DNA of 56,090 nucleotides, from contig QBVY01000006.1 of assembly GCA_003283765.1 (NCBI GenBank), positions 1 through 56,090 on the forward strand, in the 5' to 3' direction. This stretch comes from SAR86 cluster bacterium AG-313-N18. Lineage in GTDB: Bacteria > Pseudomonadota > Gammaproteobacteria > Magnimaribacterales > D2472. Shown here piece by piece: positions 44,840 to 54,806 of the stretch. The position numbers were made by a program, and so were the translations under genes. The notes below the pieces were generated by a model, which ran no database searches, was not told the DNA's origin, and worked only from the letters and a program-made list of their open reading frames with translations. The first letter of the stretch is position 1, and each line of letters opens with the position of its first letter.

Positions 44840-45284
44840 TCAAACAGACAAAAAAATTATTCAGTTGCTTGGTGCGGACGCAAGAATGTCAAACAATCAA
44901 ATGGCAAAAGTTATTGGAGTGACTGAGGGCACAGTTCGAAATAGAATTCAGAAGCTTATTAAAAATAGAGTAATTAAAATTTCAGTTATTAATAATATTA
45001 ATCGTATGGAAAATCCTTCTCTTGCTTTTGTTGGATTAGATGTTGAAACTCGAGCTAAAGATTCAGTTGCAAAAGCTCTATCGAAGATGAAAGAAGTAAG
45101 GTTTGTATCATCCCTTATCGGTCGCCATGATCTTATGGCGTTTGTTCTTGCAGAAGATGTTACTAAGTTATCAAAAGTTTTGTATGAAGAAATTTCTTCT
45201 CTTCCAGGCGTTAGATTCTCAGAGTCATCTATAGGGTTAAAGTATTACAAGTATGATTACCGCTGGGCAAGGATATTAGATTGA
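44829..45284 (+). CDS. Lrp/AsnC family regulator 2
   Basis: 151 aa from ATG 44829 (MKLDQTDKKI); a longer frame begins inside regulator 1. HTH TDKKIIQLLGADARMSNNQMAKVIGVTEGTVRNRIQKLI and a RAM domain. It differs clearly from regulator 1, so the pair is not a recent duplication. It overlaps fadD3 by 4 bases (TTGA), placing the regulators inside the operon they probably control. Confidence 0.88.
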   Translation: MKLDQTDKKIIQLLGADARMSNNQMAKVIGVTEGTVRNRIQKLIKNRVIKISVINNINRMENPSLAFVGLDVETRAKDSVAKALSKMKEVRFVSSLIGRHDLMAFVLAEDVTKLSKVLYEEISSLPGVRFSESSIGLKYYKYDYRWARILD

Positions 45285-46828
45285 AAAACCTTAATACACT
45301 TACGATACCGGCCTTGATAAAGCTTCAAGCTGATAAATTGGGGTCTAAACCTGCTTTAATTTCTGATGATGAAACCTTATCTTTTTTAGAACTAGATAAT
45401 TTATCAACAAACATTGCTACTCATTTAATGGATTTCAACGTGTTGCCAGGCGATAGAGTTGCTATTTGGGCTCCTAACATGAATGAGTGGGTTTTAGCAG
45501 CTGTTGCAATTCATAAGGTTGGCGGTGTTTTAGTCCCTATCAACACAAGAATGAAAGGGAAAGAGGCTGCTTACATTTTAAATAATTCAGAATCTAAAAT
45601 CTTGTTCAGCGTAAGAACTTTTCTTGGAACAGATTACTTTCAGCTTCTAGAAAATGAGGATCTCCCTTATTTAAAATATCAGATTTCACTTGATGAGACA
45701 GAGGCAACAGATTCAAAAATTGCATTCCCAACCCTGATAGACAAGACTCTGGATGTTCAACTACCTGAAGTTATTGAAACAGATATGGCAGATATTATTT
45801 TTACTTCTGGCACAACTGGAAAACCTAAAGGTGTTATATCTTCGCATTTACAAAATATCAAAGTATTTGATTATTGGTCAACTTATATTGGTTTGAATGA
45901 GAATGATAGATATCTAATTGTAAATCCTTTTTTCCATACTTTTGGATATAAGGCTGGCTGGCTTGCTGCTGTAATGCGAGGTGTTACCGCTTACCCATGT
46001 CCAATCTTTGATGCAGATAAGATAATTAAGATAATCAATAAAGAAAAAATTTCTATGCTTCCTGGCCCGCCAACTCTTTATCAATCTATTTTAACTAGTG
46101 AATTAGTAAAAACCATGGACATTTCTTCATTAAGACTGGGGGTTACTGGAGCAGCCTCTATTCCCATTCAGCTAATTAAGGATATGAAAGAAACCTTAGG
46201 TTTTGAAACTGTTATTACTGCGTATGGGCTAACAGAAAGTACTGGTGTTGTTACCATGTGTACGCCTGATGATGATTATGAGACCATTGCAACGACTTCA
46301 GGCTGTGCCATAGCCGATGTTGAAGTTAAATGCGTAAACCACGACAACCAAGAGGTATCTGCTGGGGAGCCAGGGGAGATCTTGGTGAGAGGCTATAACA
46401 TTACCCAAGGCTATTTTAAGAATCCAGAGGCTACTCAAGAAGCTATAGATATTGATGGTTGGTTGCACACAGGCGATATTGGAATACTTGATACCAATGG
46501 TTATATAAAAATAACTGATAGAAGTAAGGACATGTTTATTGTGGGGGGATTTAATGCTTATCCAGCTGAAATAGAAAATATTTTATGTGATCATCCAGCA
46601 ATCTCTCAAGCAGCTGTTATCGGTATTGAGGATGAGAGGATGGGTGAGGTTGCGAAAGCTTTTGTTGTCTTAAAACCCAATCAAAATTTAGACGCTGATT
46701 CACTGCTGCAATGGTCTAAGGATAATATGGCTAATTACAAGGTTCCAAGAGAAGTAGAGTTTGTTAGTGAATTACCCACAAACGCTGCTGGCAAAATAAT
46801 GAAATATCTACTTAAGGATGAATCATGA
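45281..46828 (+). CDS. fadD3: HIP-CoA ligase, FadD3-like
   Basis: 515-aa acyl-CoA synthetase that activates the ring C/D acid HIP, the entry to the ipd branch. Start is TTG at 45281, overlapping regulator 2. P-loop TSGTTGKPKGV at residues 175-185; the FadD3-like blocks are NPFFHTFGYKAGWLAA, LPGPPTLYQS, LRLGVTGAASIP, AYGLTESTGVVTMC. The adenylation motif is followed by the C-terminal GWLHTGDIG, GGFNAYPAEIE and the catalytic Lys in NAAGKIMK. Overlaps the next gene by 4 bases. Confidence 0.91.
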   Translation: MKNLNTLTIPALIKLQADKLGSKPALISDDETLSFLELDNLSTNIATHLMDFNVLPGDRVAIWAPNMNEWVLAAVAIHKVGGVLVPINTRMKGKEAAYILNNSESKILFSVRTFLGTDYFQLLENEDLPYLKYQISLDETEATDSKIAFPTLIDKTLDVQLPEVIETDMADIIFTSGTTGKPKGVISSHLQNIKVFDYWSTYIGLNENDRYLIVNPFFHTFGYKAGWLAAVMRGVTAYPCPIFDADKIIKIINKEKISMLPGPPTLYQSILTSELVKTMDISSLRLGVTGAASIPIQLIKDMKETLGFETVITAYGLTESTGVVTMCTPDDDYETIATTSGCAIADVEVKCVNHDNQEVSAGEPGEILVRGYNITQGYFKNPEATQEAIDIDGWLHTGDIGILDTNGYIKITDRSKDMFIVGGFNAYPAEIENILCDHPAISQAAVIGIEDERMGEVAKAFVVLKPNQNLDADSLLQWSKDNMANYKVPREVEFVSELPTNAAGKIMKYLLKDES

Positions 46829-47799
46829 GAATCATTATTTCTAAAGACAATGATAAGTTATATAGATCTGAGTTGCTTTCATTTGATCCTTCAATGGAGA
46901 TTATCGCACTTAATCCTTTGGACTCTAATGACCCAGGCTGGGAGACTATTCCAGATTCAGATGCTTTGTTTATGTGTTATCAGTTTTTATTTGCGGCCAG
47001 GGATAATCCAAAAATTCATGATGCTTTGTTGAGCTTAGCGAAACGAATGAAATTTCTTCAAAGTGGTTTTGCTGGAATGGATGCGCCAATACTTCAAGAT
47101 GTTTTAAAAATTGAAAATGTTCATATTGCTAATGCAAGTAGCGTTTATGCAATTCCAATTGCCCATTATGTTTTCTCGCAAATCCTAAGATGGAATAAGA
47201 GAATTGATCATCATATTGAATACCAGCAATCTAAAAACTGGGCTCCAATAGCAGGAGATGGTGAACTTACTAATAAAACCCTAGTGATCCTTGGTTATGG
47301 GGGCATTGGGAGTCAGGTTGCAAAGTTAGGCAAAGTTTTTGGAATGAGGGTAACTGGGATTAGACGTAATCCACATGATGATGAGCATGCTGATGAAGTA
47401 TTGGGGCTGGATCGGTTTGAGGAATTGCTTCCACTGACTGATTATTTAGTTTTATCATTACCAGATAGTTCTGAAACAAGAGATATTATCAATGCAAATG
47501 TCCTAGAAAAACTTAATAGCTCTGCCATGTTGATTAATGTTGGTCGCGGCACTGCAATTAATGAGGATGATCTTTCCGAAGCATTGAATGATGGGAAAAT
47601 TGCTGCTGCTGCACTAGATACCACTAAGGTTGAACCTCTTGATGTTAGCTCTTCACTTTGGACGGCTAAGAATTGTTTTATTTCAGCTCATGATTCCGCT
47701 CACTCTTTGTTATCTTTAGAGCGAGCATTTAAGTTATTTTTTCAGAACATTAAAAATATTAAAAATGGCGATCAAATAGTAAATCTTTATTCAGAATAA
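46825..47799 (+). CDS. D-2-hydroxyacid dehydrogenase-like protein
   Basis: 324 aa. NAD motif GYGGIGSQVAKLGKVFG, catalytic Arg in NVGRGTAI and His in SAHDSAH (usually TPHxxG). The catalytic-Glu block is KVEPLDVSSSLW, which is DxFxxEPLPxxSPLW in most members. It resembles the GhrA-like group acting on glyoxylate and 2-oxoacids. It is coupled to fadD3 by ATGA. No steroid role for this family is known to me. Confidence 0.83.
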   Translation: MRIIISKDNDKLYRSELLSFDPSMEIIALNPLDSNDPGWETIPDSDALFMCYQFLFAARDNPKIHDALLSLAKRMKFLQSGFAGMDAPILQDVLKIENVHIANASSVYAIPIAHYVFSQILRWNKRIDHHIEYQQSKNWAPIAGDGELTNKTLVILGYGGIGSQVAKLGKVFGMRVTGIRRNPHDDEHADEVLGLDRFEELLPLTDYLVLSLPDSSETRDIINANVLEKLNSSAMLINVGRGTAINEDDLSEALNDGKIAAAALDTTKVEPLDVSSSLWTAKNCFISAHDSAHSLLSLERAFKLFFQNIKNIKNGDQIVNLYSE

Positions 47800-47854: not shown

Positions 47855-49096
47855 GTGAAAATGAAGTTTTTTGGTTGGAGAATGGTTTTTACGGGTCTTA
47901 CCCTTGAATTCACTGTCGTGGGTTTTATTTTTTATAGTTTTCCAGTCATTTGGCCTTACCTAATAGCAGAATTAGGCATGACCGAAAGTCAGCTTGGTAT
48001 GGTTTCTGCATTCTATTTTATACCTGTGGGAATTTTAGCAATTGTGGTAGGCCGCGCCCTTGATAAGTATTCTGTTAAAAATTTTATGATGATCGGGGCT
48101 ATAATTTATGCCGTCGGACTTTTTTCTTTAAGTTTCATAAATTCTTATTGGTCTCTTTTAACGATTTATCTTACTTTTCTTGCCCTGGGATCTATTATGA
48201 TGGGAAATTTAGCCGTAGCTAAATTAATCTCAAATTGGTTTGATAAAAATGCTGGCAGAGCACTAGGTATTGCAGCAATAGGTATTTCCTTTTCAGGCGT
48301 TTTACTTCCTTTGGTTGTTGATCCTCTTCTTGATTTAGTGGGCTGGAGAAATGTTTATGTAATCTTTGCTTCTGTAGTTCTTTTCATTATTTTGCCTCTT
48401 ATCTTTTTTACTGTGATTGATGATCCAAAGACAGTTGATCAAGTTAAAGATGGTATAAAAAAAGATAATGTAGATGAATCCCTGCCTCAGCAGATGACAG
48501 CAAAAGATCTTTTATCTAAAAAAGTTTTTTGGATCATTTCCTTAGCATTCGCCTTTCAATTTCTTTCAATGATGGGTGTTCTTGCTTTCTTACCCGTTCA
48601 TGCAAGCAAAATGGGGCTAGATGAAACTTGGAATTTTATAGGTCTTCCTGTCAAACAATATGTTTTCGCTTATACTTTATCTGCTTTTGGAGGAGTCCTA
48701 GGAAAAATAATATTTGGATATCTCATGGACATGATGAAAGCTGCACATCCCTCAATGATGGCGATGTGTCTTCAAGCAATTGGAATCTTTGGAATTACTT
48801 ATTTCAACGAACCAAGTATATTTCTCTCCAGTGCATTCATATTTGGTTTAGGTTTTGGTGCTGCAACTCCCCTTATGACTACATGCTATTTAAGAACTTT
48901 TGGGGCACATAATCTTGGGAAAGCCAGAGGCATATCATCTCCAATTATTTCCCCGCTTCAACCAATTGGAATTCTAATAACAAGCATATTGATAGGTTTT
49001 CAAGATACTTACTTTCTAGCTTTCAATATTATGGGATGCTTTGCTCTTGTTGCTGTAGTTTTAGCGAGCCAAATTCAAGAGCCTGAAAAAAACTGA
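47855..49096 (+). CDS. MFS transporter, candidate steroid uptake
   Basis: 413 aa with about 12 transmembrane helices. The first loop GRALDKYSVKN is the MFS DxxxR/K-type A motif, and a long cytoplasmic loop (DDPKTVDQVKDGIKK…) lies between the two halves, as in oxalate/formate-type (OFA) and related carriers. GTG 47855 or ATG 47861 could be the start. It lies 55 bases after the cluster's last catabolic gene on the same strand. Actinobacteria use Mce4 for cholesterol; none is here, so this carrier is a candidate for import of a steroid acid. Confidence 0.85.
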   Translation: MKMKFFGWRMVFTGLTLEFTVVGFIFYSFPVIWPYLIAELGMTESQLGMVSAFYFIPVGILAIVVGRALDKYSVKNFMMIGAIIYAVGLFSLSFINSYWSLLTIYLTFLALGSIMMGNLAVAKLISNWFDKNAGRALGIAAIGISFSGVLLPLVVDPLLDLVGWRNVYVIFASVVLFIILPLIFFTVIDDPKTVDQVKDGIKKDNVDESLPQQMTAKDLLSKKVFWIISLAFAFQFLSMMGVLAFLPVHASKMGLDETWNFIGLPVKQYVFAYTLSAFGGVLGKIIFGYLMDMMKAAHPSMMAMCLQAIGIFGITYFNEPSIFLSSAFIFGLGFGAATPLMTTCYLRTFGAHNLGKARGISSPIISPLQPIGILITSILIGFQDTYFLAFNIMGCFALVAVVLASQIQEPEKN

Positions 49097-49108: not shown

Positions 49109-49399
49109 ATGTTTCATTTAGCTCTGCATTTCATAGCTCCATTAGTAATTGCTTTTCTATTTTTTAAAGAAAATTGGAAGCTGTCTTATTTAATAATGAT
49201 AACAACTATGCTGGTTGACTTAGATCATTTATTTGCGAGTCCAATTTACGACACTAATCGTTGCTGCATAGGATTTCATCCCCTCCATCAGTATTGGTTT
49301 ATTGGTATATATTTAGCCATGAGTTTTTTTTCACAGACTAGATTAATTGGAGTTGGTTTAACCATCCATATGGTTTTGGATGCTTCGGATTGTTTTTAG
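49109..49399 (+). CDS. DUF6122-like small membrane protein
   Basis: 96 aa with about three hydrophobic helices and a conserved-looking MLVDLDHLFASPIYDTNRCC-type block, as I recall for DUF6122. It contains conserved His and Asp residues (DLDHL, FHPLHQYW), suggesting a metal site, and is probably related to the YdjM-type membrane metal-dependent hydrolases. Function unknown. Its last 22 codons recur, diverged, at 53109-53177. Confidence 0.7.
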   Translation: MFHLALHFIAPLVIAFLFFKENWKLSYLIMITTMLVDLDHLFASPIYDTNRCCIGFHPLHQYWFIGIYLAMSFFSQTRLIGVGLTIHMVLDASDCF

Positions 49400-49489
49400 A
49401 TCTCTTTCACAAGAGAAGAAGTAAATTAATTATATGGCAAATGTAGGTATAATATCGTTAAATACACATGATAGATTGTTAAAATTAGA

Positions 49490-50467
49490 ATGCCAAAAGT
49501 ATTAATTACAACCATACCATTTGGTAATCCAGAGCCAAAACCTCTAAAAATGCTTGAGGATGCAGAAATTGAGTACACTATCAATCCTTACAATAGAAAG
49601 ATTACTGAGAAAGATTTAATTGAAATTATTGCTAATTATGATGGTCTTATAGCTGGAACCGAAAGAATATCAAAAAATGTTATGGACATAGCTTCAAATC
49701 TAAAAATAATTGCTAGAGTAGGGGTTGGCACAGATAACGTAGATTTAAATTATGCAAAAGATAATAACATTATGGTGTCATATACACCTGATGCTCCTGG
49801 ACCAGCTATTGCAGAGCTCACTATAGGTTTTATGTACTCACTTCTTCGCTCAACTCATACAGCTAATCTTTTAATGCGAAGAGGGAAGTGGCAACGGTCT
49901 ATAGGAAGAAGTTTTTCAGAAATGACTATTGGTATTATTGGCGCAGGGAGAGTTGGCTCTAAAGTTATAGAGTTAATAAGTAAAATTGGATGCAGCAAAC
50001 TTCTAGTTTGTGATATACATCATAATGAAATTTTAAGAGATCAGCATGGTTTTGAATGGGCTACAAAAGAAAAAATATTTACAGAGGCAGATATAATTTC
50101 ATTTCACGTTCCGTTGACGGGTGATGCAAAGGGTATGGTTAAAAGAGATCAATTGCTCTCAATGAAAAAAGATGTTTTGATTATTAATACTGCAAGAGGT
50201 GGTATTATTGATGAAGATGATCTTTATGAAGTTATGAAATCAGGTCATATTGGAGGTGCTGCAATTGACGTGTTTGATCAGGAGCCCTATGAAGGTTCTT
50301 TGATGGATATTGATAGGTGCTTATTAACACCACATATTGGTTCTGCTTCAAGAGAATGTAGAGCCAAGATGGAAATGGAAGCTACAGAAGAAATCATTCG
50401 TTTTTTTCAATGTAAAGAATTATTATCTCCAGTAACTGAAACGGAATATCTCCCTCAAAAGCAATAA
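49490..50467 (+). CDS. D-3-phosphoglycerate dehydrogenase-like 2-hydroxyacid dehydrogenase
   Basis: 325 aa. NAD motif GIIGAGRVGSKV, catalytic Arg in NTARGGIIDEDD, Glu in DVFDQEP and His in TPHIGS, so a complete 2-hydroxyacid dehydrogenase. The C-terminal regulatory ACT domain of SerA is absent. It heads a four-gene run with an epimerase, a HAD phosphatase and a KdsB-like enzyme, so it should provide or oxidise a hydroxy/keto acid for a surface sugar rather than serine. The upstream 90-base gap is AT-rich and should contain the promoter. Confidence 0.85.
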   Translation: MPKVLITTIPFGNPEPKPLKMLEDAEIEYTINPYNRKITEKDLIEIIANYDGLIAGTERISKNVMDIASNLKIIARVGVGTDNVDLNYAKDNNIMVSYTPDAPGPAIAELTIGFMYSLLRSTHTANLLMRRGKWQRSIGRSFSEMTIGIIGAGRVGSKVIELISKIGCSKLLVCDIHHNEILRDQHGFEWATKEKIFTEADIISFHVPLTGDAKGMVKRDQLLSMKKDVLIINTARGGIIDEDDLYEVMKSGHIGGAAIDVFDQEPYEGSLMDIDRCLLTPHIGSASRECRAKMEMEATEEIIRFFQCKELLSPVTETEYLPQKQ

Positions 50468-50468
50468 T

Positions 50469-51335
50469 ATGAAAAAAATTATAGTGTTTGGTGGTTCTGG
50501 TTTTTTAGGCTCTCATGTTGTAGATAAATTAATTGCACAGGGTCTAAATGTCACGGTATGTGATAAAACAGAGTCGAAATATCTTAATGAAAGCATTAAC
50601 TTTCAAAAGTGTAATATTCTGGACCTGGATGAGGTCAAAAAAGCTGTAAAAGGATCTAATATTGTATACAACTTTGCGTCATTAGCGGATTTAAATGATG
50701 CTATCAGCAAACCATTAGAGACCATAAATATTAATATTTTAGGCAATGCAAATATTCTAGAGGCATGCAAAGAATATTCAATAGATCGATTCATTTATGC
50801 TAGTACTGTTTATGTTTATGGAAGAGAAGGAGGTTTTTATAGATGCAGTAAAAAAGCTGCAGAGGATTATGTTAAAGAATATTCAAACACATTTAATCTC
50901 AATTATACTATATTGCAGTATGGCTCTTTATACGGGCCAAGGTCTAACAATACAAATGGTTTATATAGAATTGTTGAATCAGCTATCAAAACTGGCTCTC
51001 TTAAATATGAAGGAAACCCCAACACCAAAAGGTCATATATTCATGTCGAAGATGCAGCAGAGAGCAGTGTAGAAATTCTGAGAGAAGACTATATCAATGA
51101 AAGCGTTATTTTATCTGGTCAAGAACCAATGAAAGTTATTGATTTATTAAAAACTTTAGCTGAAATTATGGGTATATCTGAAGATAAAATAGAGTTCATA
51201 GATAAACCTCAAGCAGGCCACTATATTATGACACCATACTCATACTCAAATAATATTGGGAAAAAATATATACCACCTAAACATATTGATTTAGGCCAAG
51301 GTTTGCTTCAGCTGATTCATCTAATCGATAATTGA
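50469..51335 (+). CDS. NAD-dependent epimerase/dehydratase (extended SDR)
   Basis: 288 aa. GGSGFLGSHV glycine motif at residues 8-17, IYASTVYVYG and the YxxxK in YRCSKKAAEDYV, and YGPRSNNTNG: a nucleotide-sugar epimerase/dehydratase. The substrate cannot be told. Starts 1 base after the dehydrogenase stop. Confidence 0.87.
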   Translation: MKKIIVFGGSGFLGSHVVDKLIAQGLNVTVCDKTESKYLNESINFQKCNILDLDEVKKAVKGSNIVYNFASLADLNDAISKPLETININILGNANILEACKEYSIDRFIYASTVYVYGREGGFYRCSKKAAEDYVKEYSNTFNLNYTILQYGSLYGPRSNNTNGLYRIVESAIKTGSLKYEGNPNTKRSYIHVEDAAESSVEILREDYINESVILSGQEPMKVIDLLKTLAEIMGISEDKIEFIDKPQAGHYIMTPYSYSNNIGKKYIPPKHIDLGQGLLQLIHLIDN

Positions 51336-51338
51336 TTG

Positions 51339-51977
51339 ATGGATCAAAAAATTCTAGCAAGTAAAAAGCATATATTTTGGGATTTTGATGGAGTTATTAA
51401 AGAATCAGTTGAAATAAAAAGTACTGCCTATGAAGAGTTATTTCTAAGATGGGGCAAACGGGTATCATTTAAAGTAAGGGATCATCATAAATTGAATGGT
51501 GGAATGTCTAGATTTGATAAGATTCCATTGTACTTATCATGGACAACTGAAGATGCAAACAAAATTTCTATCGAAAAGTTATGCAATGATTTTTCCAAAC
51601 TTGTAAAATCAAAAGTCATAGGCTCATCTTGGGTGCCTGGAGTTATTGATCTTATAGATTATTTATACTCTAACAATCGTGTATCGTATCTTGTAACAGC
51701 TACACCTCAAGATGAAATAGAAGATATTTTATGCGAATTACAAATCACTCATTTTTTTAAAGAAATTATTGGATCGCCAAAGAATAAAAGTATAGCAATA
51801 GGTGAAATAATTGATATGCACAAAATTGTGAAGCACGATGCCGTGATGATTGGAGATTCTGAAACTGACTTTATCGCTGCACAAGATAATAATATTGATT
51901 TTATTTTACGAAAAACTAATGAAAATAATGAGCTTCAATTAAATATAAACTGCAAAATGGTAAATAATTTTTTGTAA
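51339..51977 (+). CDS. HAD-superfamily phosphatase
   Basis: 212 aa from ATG 51339. The DFDGVIKES nucleophile motif I and MIGDSETDF motif IV identify a haloacid-dehalogenase phosphatase with a helical cap. It likely removes a phosphate in the sugar-acid route, as KdsC does for Kdo 8-phosphate, but it is not a plain KdsC (longer, with a cap). Overlaps none; starts 3 bases after the epimerase stop. Confidence 0.85.
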   Translation: MDQKILASKKHIFWDFDGVIKESVEIKSTAYEELFLRWGKRVSFKVRDHHKLNGGMSRFDKIPLYLSWTTEDANKISIEKLCNDFSKLVKSKVIGSSWVPGVIDLIDYLYSNNRVSYLVTATPQDEIEDILCELQITHFFKEIIGSPKNKSIAIGEIIDMHKIVKHDAVMIGDSETDFIAAQDNNIDFILRKTNENNELQLNINCKMVNNFL

Positions 51978-52235
51978 CTGAATAACTTCAGAAAATATTA
52001 CTAGTAGCCGTTTTCAAATTTATCTTTAATCGATTTCTGAATTCAAATTATTTCAGATATTATTTTAAGGAATACTTCTGCAAGATCCATCAAGATTAAA
52101 AGCTCTAGTTTTTCAGACTTTTTAAAATTTAATTCCCTTAAGGCTCTTGAAGTATTAAGATACTTTATTGATTTTAAAATGTTCTTGATAGCAAAAAGTT
52201 TTAACAACTTTTATAAATAATCTTATTAATTAAAG
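51978..52235 (+). other. 258-base gap, no recognised gene
   Basis: Very AT-rich. One frame stays open from 52041 to a TAA at 52233-52235, touching the kdsB-like ATG, but has no ATG, GTG or TTG before codon 47 and no homology I recognise. It could be a decayed gene. A stem of a terminator type was not found. Confidence 0.4.
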
Positions 52236-52991
52236 ATGAATATATTAGCAATTATTCCGGCAAGAATGGGGAGTAGTAGATTTCCAGGCAAGCCTATGGC
52301 TAAAATTTTAGGGACACCAATGATAGGCCATGTATTTAATAATGTCTCTAGTTGTAAAGATATCACTAAAACAATTGTTGCTACCTGTGATGAAGAAATT
52401 AAGAATTATATAGAATCTATTTCAGGTGAATCTATTATGACTAGCAATATGCATGAAAGAGCATCTGACAGATGTGCCGAAGCTCTTTCAATATTAGAAA
52501 AAAAAGATGGCATAAATTATGATATTGTCGTTATGGTTCAGGGTGATGAGCCAATGACAAGTGCAGAAATGATTAGCCAAGCTATAAGTCCCATGATCAA
52601 TGATTCCAATATCAATGTTGTAAACCTTGTTGGGGAAATAAAAAACGAATCAGAGTTTAATGATAGAAACTGTATAAAAGTAGTTTGTGATCTAAATGAC
52701 AACGCATTATTCTTTTCAAGAGAACCAATTCCCACAGTAGTAAACACTTCTTTAATCCAGATGAAAAAACAAGTATGCGTGATTCCATTTAGAAGAGAGT
52801 TTTTATTTAAATATACGTCGCTTAAACCGACTCCGCTTGAGGAAATAGAATCTGTTGATATGATGAGAGTATTGGAGCATGGATATAAAGTAAAAATGGT
52901 TGCTACAAATTGGACAACATCACCAGTTGACACAGAAGAGGATCTTAAAAAGGTAGAAAAGTTAATGACTGATTTTTCTTTTAGAAAATGA
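52236..52991 (+). CDS. CMP-Kdo synthetase-like cytidylyltransferase (KdsB family)
   Basis: 251 aa. The nucleotide-binding motif is AIIPARMGSSRFPGKPMA and the metal block is MVQGDEPM, both typical of 3-deoxy-manno-octulosonate cytidylyltransferases; the C-terminal block is TSPVDTEEDLKKVEKLM. It activates a 3-deoxy-ulosonic acid with CTP. The four-gene context suggests a Kdo-like or modified sugar acid for a surface glycan, not necessarily the core lipid A Kdo, which would normally have its own kdsB elsewhere. Confidence 0.88.
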   Translation: MNILAIIPARMGSSRFPGKPMAKILGTPMIGHVFNNVSSCKDITKTIVATCDEEIKNYIESISGESIMTSNMHERASDRCAEALSILEKKDGINYDIVVMVQGDEPMTSAEMISQAISPMINDSNINVVNLVGEIKNESEFNDRNCIKVVCDLNDNALFFSREPIPTVVNTSLIQMKKQVCVIPFRREFLFKYTSLKPTPLEEIESVDMMRVLEHGYKVKMVATNWTTSPVDTEEDLKKVEKLMTDFSFRK

Positions 52992-53108
52992 AGAAATATT
53001 TAACTTCATCGCTCTTTTGCTTTCAAGTTGTTCTTCTCTATAAAAAATAATTGCTGAAATGAAATCGAAGTTCCTAATAATTGAATAAACAAAAAAGTTA
53101 CAAACGCT

Positions 53109-53177
53109 TCAAAAAAGAGACTAATTGGAGTCTGTTTAATCATCCATGTGGCTTTGGATGCATTTGAGTGCTTTTAA
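53109..53177 (+). pseudogene. Remnant of DUF6122-like gene C-terminus
   Basis: Twenty-two codons and a TAA encode SKKRLIGVCLIIHVALDAFE plus two residues. They match the last residues of the gene at 49109-49399 (SQTRLIGVGLTIHMVLDASD… end) at about 16 of 23 positions including the stop. No frame continues upstream in a recognisable way. It is a decayed copy, not a gene. The rest of 52992-53207 shows nothing I recognise. Confidence 0.75.
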
Positions 53178-53207
53178 ATATCTTTTAAGAGCGAATAAAT
53201 AGATCAA

Positions 53208-54413
53208 TTAAAATTCTTTATTTGCAATAGCTCTAAAAAATTCAAGCGTCTCAAGCTCACTCTTCATATCTATGTCTTCAGAGGTTCCATATGAGCTGTT
53301 AGCAGATAATTTTACAATGACCATGCTCGATTCTGGTGCAACATAAATCATCTGGTTGTAAACTCCAATTGCCATGAATTCATTTTTATCACCTTTAGGT
53401 ATCCACCACTGATAGCCATATCCTAAGGGGTAATCAGAAAGTGGATTATCACCTGGAGTTAGGTGTGGCCCATCTGGGGTGATCGAGTCTTTTACCCAAG
53501 ATTTAGGAACAATTTGTTGCCCATTTAACTCGCCATCTAAACGGTAAAGTTCTCCAAATTTTGCATAATCTCTTGCAGTAACATTTAGTCCAGCAAATGC
53601 CATTTCCATACCCTCAGAATCAAGCAGCCAATAACCTTTATTAGTAGCGCCCATTGGATGCCAGAGCATTTCAGTCATGTAGTCTGTGATTGATTTGCCT
53701 GTAGCTCGATTAACTAACATGCCAAGAGTCTGAGTATCCATTGAATTGTAATGATTTCTTGTTCCAGGCTCGAAGTCATTACTTAAGGTTTGAATAAATT
53801 CATCGAATGAACCGCCCAAGCTAAAAATTTTAGCCCATCGATTTATATCTGATTCAGGGTCACTGTAATTCTCGTCCCATGATGCGCCGGAAGACATTTG
53901 CAATACATCCTTTATACGCACATTGTTATATGGTGAATTTTTTAATTCAGGCACATAATCTGAAATTGCCTCTTCTATACTCTTGATATGACCATCTCTT
54001 ATCGCTATACCAATAAGAGCCGAAATAAAGCTTTTTGCAACTGACATAGACATCCACTGAACATTTTCTCCACCAGTTAACCAGTATCTTTCAAATTGAA
54101 TTTCTCCATTTCTAAGAATCAATAAAGCGCTAGTGTCTGTTCGCTGGAGAAATTTTCCTGTTTCAATTTCCGTATCATTGAAATTAAAACTCACTGGTAG
54201 AGAGATAATTTTGCTAGATTTAAAATTTAAAGGTTTGGAAGAGGGGGTTAATGTTGACGAGTCTATGAATTTGTAGAACCTATTAAGATTTTCATACTGC
54301 TCTTGTCCTGAAAAGAGGGTGCTGACAACCATCACTCGAGTAAAAAGATCTTTATATACAAAGAATGCAATCAAGAGGATGATCGTTAAAAGACCTAGTA
54401 TTTTTTTAACCAT
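53208..54413 (-). CDS. Beta-lactamase-fold serine hydrolase
   Basis: 401 aa. ATG at 54413 is preferred because GGGGGA lies upstream of it; a TTG five codons earlier would extend it. An N-terminal hydrophobic anchor (KILGLLTIILLIAFFVY) suggests membrane attachment or export. SxxK is visible as SVAK and the tyrosine motif as YNS; the C-terminal part has a GYGYQWW-type block. This is the class C beta-lactamase/esterase EstB-like family (penicillin-binding protein-like), with substrate unknown. It is transcribed away from the cassette, just downstream of tRNA-Arg on the same strand. Confidence 0.88.
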   Translation of the reverse strand: MVKKILGLLTIILLIAFFVYKDLFTRVMVVSTLFSGQEQYENLNRFYKFIDSSTLTPSSKPLNFKSSKIISLPVSFNFNDTEIETGKFLQRTDTSALLILRNGEIQFERYWLTGGENVQWMSMSVAKSFISALIGIAIRDGHIKSIEEAISDYVPELKNSPYNNVRIKDVLQMSSGASWDENYSDPESDINRWAKIFSLGGSFDEFIQTLSNDFEPGTRNHYNSMDTQTLGMLVNRATGKSITDYMTEMLWHPMGATNKGYWLLDSEGMEMAFAGLNVTARDYAKFGELYRLDGELNGQQIVPKSWVKDSITPDGPHLTPGDNPLSDYPLGYGYQWWIPKGDKNEFMAIGVYNQMIYVAPESSMVIVKLSANSSYGTSEDIDMKSELETLEFFRAIANKEF

Positions 54414-54432
54414 TTTTAATTCCCCCAAAAAA

Positions 54433-54507
54433 TGGTGCCCTCTCCAGGAATCGAACCTAGAACTACTCCTTAGGAGGGAGTTGTTATATCCGTTTAACTA
54501 AGAAGGC
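54433..54507 (-). tRNA. tRNA-Arg (CCT)
   Basis: Read on the minus strand, the acceptor GCCTTCT pairs with AGAGGGC (one G-U pair), with discriminator A and an encoded CCA. The anticodon stem-loop ACTCCCTCCTAAGGAGT gives CCT. The T-arm reads CTAGGTTCGATTCCTGG. Confidence 0.94.
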
Positions 54508-54512
54508 TCTGA

Positions 54513-54806
54513 TTAAGCGTCTGTTATATCAAAAATATCTATATTTGGTCCATCAACGCACATCTCGCCAATAGCGCCAACAGTTCCATCTTCAGTTCTA
54601 AAAGCTAAATATTTTTCATAGTGCTCTTTTGAATCCCAAACCTCTGTAAGGACAAACTTATGAGGATCTTCAACATGCAATGTGAGATTGATATTTTGAC
54701 ATCCATCATATGCACGCGTTACATGAAAAACCTCAGTACAAATTCCTGAAAATTGATCAACCAACCCATCCTTTAAGGTACCGCTAAGTAAAACACTGAC
54801 TGCCAT
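54513..54806 (-). CDS. Antibiotic biosynthesis monooxygenase (ABM) domain protein
   Basis: 97-aa ferredoxin-like alpha/beta barrel protein. The YgiN-like pattern is VFHVTRAYDGCQNINLTLH and FVLTEVWDSKEHYEKYLAFR. The family includes quinol monooxygenases and heme-degrading proteins; no specific role is assignable. It is 5 bases from tRNA-Arg, and divergent from thrS across 128 bases. Confidence 0.83.
   Translation of the reverse strand: MAVSVLLSGTLKDGLVDQFSGICTEVFHVTRAYDGCQNINLTLHVEDPHKFVLTEVWDSKEHYEKYLAFRTEDGTVGAIGEMCVDGPNIDIFDITDA

Follow-up and report, generated by a model that had tools for sequence, protein, structure and literature searches.

Two gene scraps beside a sugar-acid cassette point to insertion and later deletion at a variable locus of a SAR86 genome

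Introduction

How did a run of four sugar-acid genes come to lie between an intact gene and a diverged piece of such a gene's 3' end? This question is raised by contig QBVY01000006.1 of SAR86 cluster bacterium AG-313-N18 (assembly GCA_003283765.1), of which positions 1 to 56,090 were analysed. This whole stretch is referred to as the window, and all coordinates are given in it. The four genes, referred to as the cassette, encode a PGDH-like dehydrogenase, an epimerase, a HAD phosphatase and a KdsB-like enzyme, and the gene on their left is a member of the DUF6122 family. An earlier note on the same DNA had described an AT-rich run bounded by a DUF6122-like gene on the left and by a diverged 22-codon remnant of its C-terminus on the right, and had explained this pattern by an insertion or recombination at the 3' end of the gene. 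The gene families, the AT-richness and both bounds were borne out by our analysis, as was the insertion; a single event at the 3' end was not. We consider it likely that the patch is a mosaic formed at a turnover hotspot, in which a haplotype carrying the cassette, similar to that of the related genome G019, became linked to a left arm with an MFS transporter gene and DUF6122 at its end and afterwards underwent a deletion, and that the cassette feeds an ulosonic-acid route.

Results and discussion

The empty site in related genomes

The locus was compared in 26 genomes of the genus, including the cassette genome. DUF6122 is present in 10 of them and the MFS gene in six. In four of the 25 other genomes (G010, G017, G018 and G019), DUF6122 adjoins a gene for a beta-lactamase-family serine hydrolase, here called BLAC, and no cassette is found. 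Their gene order is MFS-DUF6122-BLAC-tRNA-Arg, with about 35 nucleotides (nt) from DUF6122 to the BLAC stop codon. The left arm in the window consists of a 2-hydroxyacid dehydrogenase gene (HAcid; 46825-47799, plus strand; PF02826), which closes the conserved left flank, the MFS transporter gene as a variable module (47855-49096, plus strand; PF07690) and the intact DUF6122 gene (49109-49399, plus strand; PF19617 with E 6e-40; 80-92% nucleotide identity to its orthologues). It matches the empty sites up to about 49432, the last base ahead of the BLAC stop; position 49433 is the first base that differs and opens junction 1 together with the cassette leader (49433-49489). Because the four relatives have MFS, DUF6122 and BLAC without the cassette, the cassette is, on this comparison of gene order, an insertion. 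The earlier note had suggested checking cassette-less relatives for a direct joint of these genes, and had taken a cassette conserved at this place in all relatives as the case against its reading; the four genomes have the contiguous genes and an empty site. A 23-codon open reading frame (ORF), MANVGIISLNTHDRLLKLECQKY, starts just after 49432 at junction 1 (49433-49510) and overlaps the start of the PGDH gene. It may be what is left of the 5' end of another gene, but it gave no match in the loci of the compared relatives.

The left arm itself looks mixed in ancestry, as judged from its nucleotide identities: HAcid is 90-91% identical to G001, G009 and G010 as opposed to 75-77% to G017 and G019, and the MFS gene is about 92% identical to that of every genus genome that has one. 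Together with the AMP ligase gene ahead of it (45281-46828), HAcid occurs in the genus in two types, with about 90% and 75-80% nucleotide identity to the cassette genome, respectively. These types are discordant with the rest of the locus, which is a sign of recombination.

The repeat and the right edge of the cassette

The cassette is flanked by a direct repeat of 103 nt, whose copies at 49330-49432 and 53108-53210 (both plus strand) are 76% identical, ungapped and 3.8 kb apart. A blastn comparison gave the repeat at E 1.9e-14, with 76.7% identity over 90 nt; the next match in the window reaches only E 0.06. The left copy comprises the 3' end of DUF6122 and 33 nt beyond it, and matches the empty site as far as the BLAC stop. 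The right copy contains the remnant at 53109-53177, which consists of 22 codons, reading SKKRLIGVCLIIHVALDAFECF, and a stop codon, and its likeness to the left copy likewise continues for 33 nt beyond the stop. A transcription terminator within the repeat was considered and rejected: the hairpin is intact in the left copy and lost in the right one, yet it is no better than in shuffled sequence (z -0.5).

Clean repeats on both sides of the cassette, located at a gene 3' end by the BLAC stop, speak for a simple single insertion, in which a mobile element or circle entered at the 3' end of DUF6122 and about 100 nt were duplicated as attL and attR, with subsequent decay of the right copy. The distribution of the remnant's changes over codon positions (3:3:6) suits such decay as well. 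However, four private states of the intact DUF6122 copy, among the 69 nt compared, are all missing from the remnant (0 of 4). In addition, the remnant is not closer to its neighbour (identity 0.768) than to the DUF6122 genes of other species (0.78-0.81). Since it has none of the private changes and no closer identity, the remnant is, on these 69 nt, not a copy of the present intact neighbour. The earlier note was right in assigning it to the 3' end of a DUF6122 gene, but its simple derivation from the intact gene on the left does not hold. Compared with the group consensus, the remnant has 12 changes, nine of which are its own and three of which are common to G025, one of these also to G010. 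It may have been imported from another lineage, or it may have departed before the changes of the left copy arose and then decayed; the 69 nt fit either course.

A second point against the single insertion is that the right repeat does not abut the cassette. The 117 nt from the KdsB gene to the remnant are more than a spacer, since 52988-53095 (plus strand) is a gene fragment. It aligns with nucleotides 1-113 of a lipoprotein serine-hydrolase gene of G019 (PF00144), numbered from the start codon, with 80% identity (E 4e-22); the alignment contains several small indels, and its score of 112 compares with a maximum of 31 among 2000 shuffles. By this alignment the fragment is the frameshifted 5' scrap of such a gene. 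The 12 nt that follow (53096-53107, junction 3) are unlike either parent and would be the deletion joint between the hydrolase scrap and the DUF6122 scrap. In G019, the lipoprotein hydrolase gene closes an insert of about 8 kb and stands immediately upstream of MFS-DUF6122-BLAC-tRNA; at E 1e-40 it was found in G019 alone among 107 genomes of the family. Because G019 has this gene upstream of MFS-DUF6122, the two scraps stand in the order expected after a deletion. The right edge is thus, as read from the two scraps, a deletion scar in which the 5' end of the hydrolase gene is fused with what remains of a second DUF6122 copy, its 3' end. The deleted span would extend from about codon 38 of the hydrolase gene to about codon 75 of the DUF6122 copy and include the MFS gene. 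With the scrap lying between cassette and repeat in the order of G019, and with no integrase in the cassette, we regard a simple single insertion as unlikely. The boundary between KdsB and the scrap is probably also a joint, because the stop codon of KdsB and the start codon of the scrap overlap and KdsB is shorter than its relatives by a few residues at the C-terminus.

The proposed sequence of events

From these edges we infer a starting haplotype similar to that of G019, in which the cassette lay upstream of the block lipoprotein hydrolase-MFS'-DUF6122'-BLAC-tRNA. Single-crossover integration, or else recombination between strains, would have attached this haplotype to a left arm with MFS-DUF6122 at its end, which would have left two MFS-DUF6122 blocks flanking the cassette. 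A single later deletion would then account for the loss of MFS', of the remaining part of the hydrolase gene and of most of DUF6122'. On the evidence of the empty sites and the scar, the patch arose by an insertion and a later deletion at the least. We read it as the usual turnover of a flexible genome, in which the scar happens to be exceptionally easy to read. If this history is correct, 108 nt that resemble an empty spacer reveal the neighbouring gene order before the deletion, and turnover in a small marine-type genome becomes legible from scraps.

Several points weigh against the mosaic history. The arrangement occurs in one genome only, which is 73% complete and consists of 45 contigs, and the junctions rest on one contig. 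The remnant is short, and its 12 changes in 69 nt suit local decay equally to import. The order of events may be duplication followed by deletion, or the deletion may have come first and MFS-DUF6122 may have been regained later. Finally, no mobilising enzyme was found among the cassette genes or the ORFs of the G019 insert. The sole carrier being an incomplete genome of 45 contigs also raises the question of an assembly artefact, in which the haplotypes of two strains were joined in a binned assembly. However, the repeat copies are only 76% identical, far under the level at which an assembler collapses or joins sequences, and the hydrolase scrap has indels. Such an artefact is accordingly very improbable.

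A variable interval beside tRNA-Arg(CCT)

The gene for tRNA-Arg(CCT) (54433-54507, minus strand), which was detected in 17 genomes of the genus, forms the conserved right border of the interval in which the cassette lies. The interval, from the end of AMP ligase/HAcid to the tRNA gene, was surveyed in 16 genomes; G002 was left out due to non-matching surroundings. About 11 gene contents were found across the 16 genomes, with HAcid as the left border in 14 of them. The interval holds MFS-DUF6122-BLAC in G010 and G017, the same genes with a CAAX-protease gene in G018, and the same genes with the 8 kb that include the lipoprotein hydrolase gene in G019. DUF6122 alone is found in G001 and G009, about 4 kb with DUF6122 in G025, MFS alone in G021 and BLAC alone in G022. 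Another membrane protein gene occupies the interval in G013, G015 and G023, and a short cupin-like gene does so in G004; in G014 and G020 it is empty and HAcid is also absent. The gene names of these last few types were assigned by reading the sequences. The cassette genome has an arrangement of its own, MFS-DUF6122-cassette-scraps-BLAC. By these contents, the interval from the end of the catabolic cluster to tRNA-Arg(CCT) is a hotspot of gene turnover in the genus.

A tRNA gene bordering a variable interval across the genus suggests a further explanation, namely that, as in tycheposons and other tRNA-bounded flexible islands, the 3' end of tRNA-Arg(CCT) was the site where a tyrosine recombinase inserted the cargo. 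A replacement flexible genomic island of Methylophilaceae is also bounded by tRNA-Arg(cct) (PMC10872708), and it resembles the SAR86 site in its variable content beside this tRNA and in its conserved flanks. With tycheposons, the site shares cargo genes adjoining a tRNA in a marine-type genome. However, the tRNA 3' end did not recur at up to three mismatches in the window or the G019 region, there is no recombinase among the ORFs listed for either, and BLAC (53208-54428, minus strand; PF00144; at the same site in six genus genomes) separates the cassette from the tRNA. The search for a recombinase or integrase was likewise negative for the four cassette genes and for the ORFs of the G019 insert, the latter read by eye. 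In contrast to tycheposons, the site lacks both a tyrosine recombinase and a duplication of the tRNA end, and the cassette does not adjoin the tRNA. In contrast to the Methylophilaceae island (PMC10872708), single small modules are swapped, an integrase and a repeat of the tRNA end are lacking, and the evidence consists of scraps and empty sites. We therefore judge a tRNA-targeted island to be quite improbable. The turnover would instead result from homologous and illegitimate recombination among relatives, given that no recombinase and no duplicate of the tRNA 3' end were found.

Some further features were observed in the interval and at its border. The 8-kb G019 insert between HAcid and MFS, within the region G019:C1:187000-206900, carries two genes for TetR-type regulators and two near-identical genes for small secreted proteins, all typed by eye, that is, internal duplications at the hotspot. 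In G021, the MFS reading frame (L083 8529-9797) continues into the tRNA-Arg gene and ends in ...ALSRNRT, which looks like a direct fusion of the MFS 3' end to the tRNA. On the right flank, beyond the tRNA, lies an ABM-domain gene (54513-54806, minus strand; PF03992), which G022 lacks.

The cassette genes and their composition

The cassette begins with the PGDH-like D-2-hydroxyacid dehydrogenase (49490-50467, plus strand; PF02826/PF00389), which has a stop-free frame and the motifs GAGRVG, ARGG, EPY and PHI. It is followed by an SDR of the NAD-dependent sugar epimerase/dehydratase type (50469-51335, plus strand; PF01370) with a YxxSK motif, and by the HAD phosphatase (51336-51977, plus strand; PF13419, HAD_2) with the motifs DFDGV and GDSETD. 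After a geneless gap of 258 nt (51978-52235), the KdsB-like CMP-sugar-acid synthetase (52236-52991, plus strand; CTP_transf_3) closes the cassette; it is the third kdsB homologue of the genome and scores above both NCBIfam cut-offs (PRK13368, 290.6 vs 255; TIGR00466, 165 vs 155.2). None of the four genes has an internal stop, and the catalytic motifs are present in all of them.

The GC content of the cassette genes (0.30-0.345) is lower than that of the 49 other genes of the window (0.372 ± 0.019), whereas their synonymous codon use is indistinguishable from the rest of the window (z -1.1 to 1.9). The composition check proposed by the earlier note thus separated the cassette from its flanks by GC but not by codon use, and a foreign donor suggested by codon usage was dropped. 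Another contig of this genome has surface-polysaccharide genes that, with their neighbours, are likewise AT-rich (0.29-0.39 GC). A phage origin was also rejected, as the matches of the epimerase and KdsB in phages and viral contigs are mostly distant (about 21-34% over most of the protein).

A wider sugar-acid gene set and the putative product

Elsewhere in the order, other families have related gene sets near glycosyltransferase-like and sugar genes. Within 5 kb of 80 epimerase homologues from many phyla, HAD was found in 64 cases, PGDH in 54, KdsB in 53 and an HpcH/HpaI aldolase (HpcH) in 52. The closest full cluster lies in a metagenome-assembled genome (MAG) labelled Paraglaciecola arctica SZUA-71 (L123 1-6900), with the order PGDH-epimerase-HAD-HpcH-KdsB interleaved with methyltransferase-like genes; KdsB is 69% and the epimerase 60% identical to the cassette proteins. 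Such clusters belong to surface-polysaccharide loci (this MAG, Nitrosomonas, Syntrophomonas and others). The cassette shares the four enzyme families and the order of the MAG cluster with them but lacks the aldolase and lies outside any polysaccharide locus. The 258-nt gap between HAD and KdsB is the slot of the aldolase in the best-matching cluster, and blastx gave no match to an aldolase remnant in it. With HpcH absent from this place, the cassette holds four of the five cluster genes.

The best relatives of the cassette KdsB with a solved structure are CMP-Kdo synthetases, and as a KdsB homologue above curated cut-offs it resembles the KdsB of the Kdo pathway (KdsA/KdsB); its neighbours, in contrast, are PGDH, epimerase and HAD. 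The cassette probably contributes a step to the synthesis of a CMP-activated 3-deoxy-ulosonic acid that would serve a surface glycan. On contig C14 of the same genome (8206-11673), an ELM1-like gene, a kdsB paralogue, an HpcH aldolase gene and a PGDH gene stand in a row beside polysaccharide genes. By its gene content, this row is related to the same sugar-acid cluster but shorter, and its aldolase possibly fills the step missing from the cassette. A literature search on the aldolase-KdsB gene cluster, within the library available, yielded no description of it. Only tentatively, as a possibility that we hold to be doubtful on balance, do we suggest a widespread and apparently undescribed nucleotide-sugar route, in which an HpcH/HpaI pyruvate aldolase, not KdsA or NeuB, would make the 3-deoxy-ulosonic acid, a KdsB paralogue would activate it, and the cassette would travel without the aldolase and use the other one of the genome. 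Members of many phyla carry the linked gene set, and the identity of its product can be addressed by experiment. The remaining kdsB homologue of the genome, on contig C9, is more distant (32% identical) and belongs to a type that most genomes of the family carry; it is likely the lipopolysaccharide enzyme.

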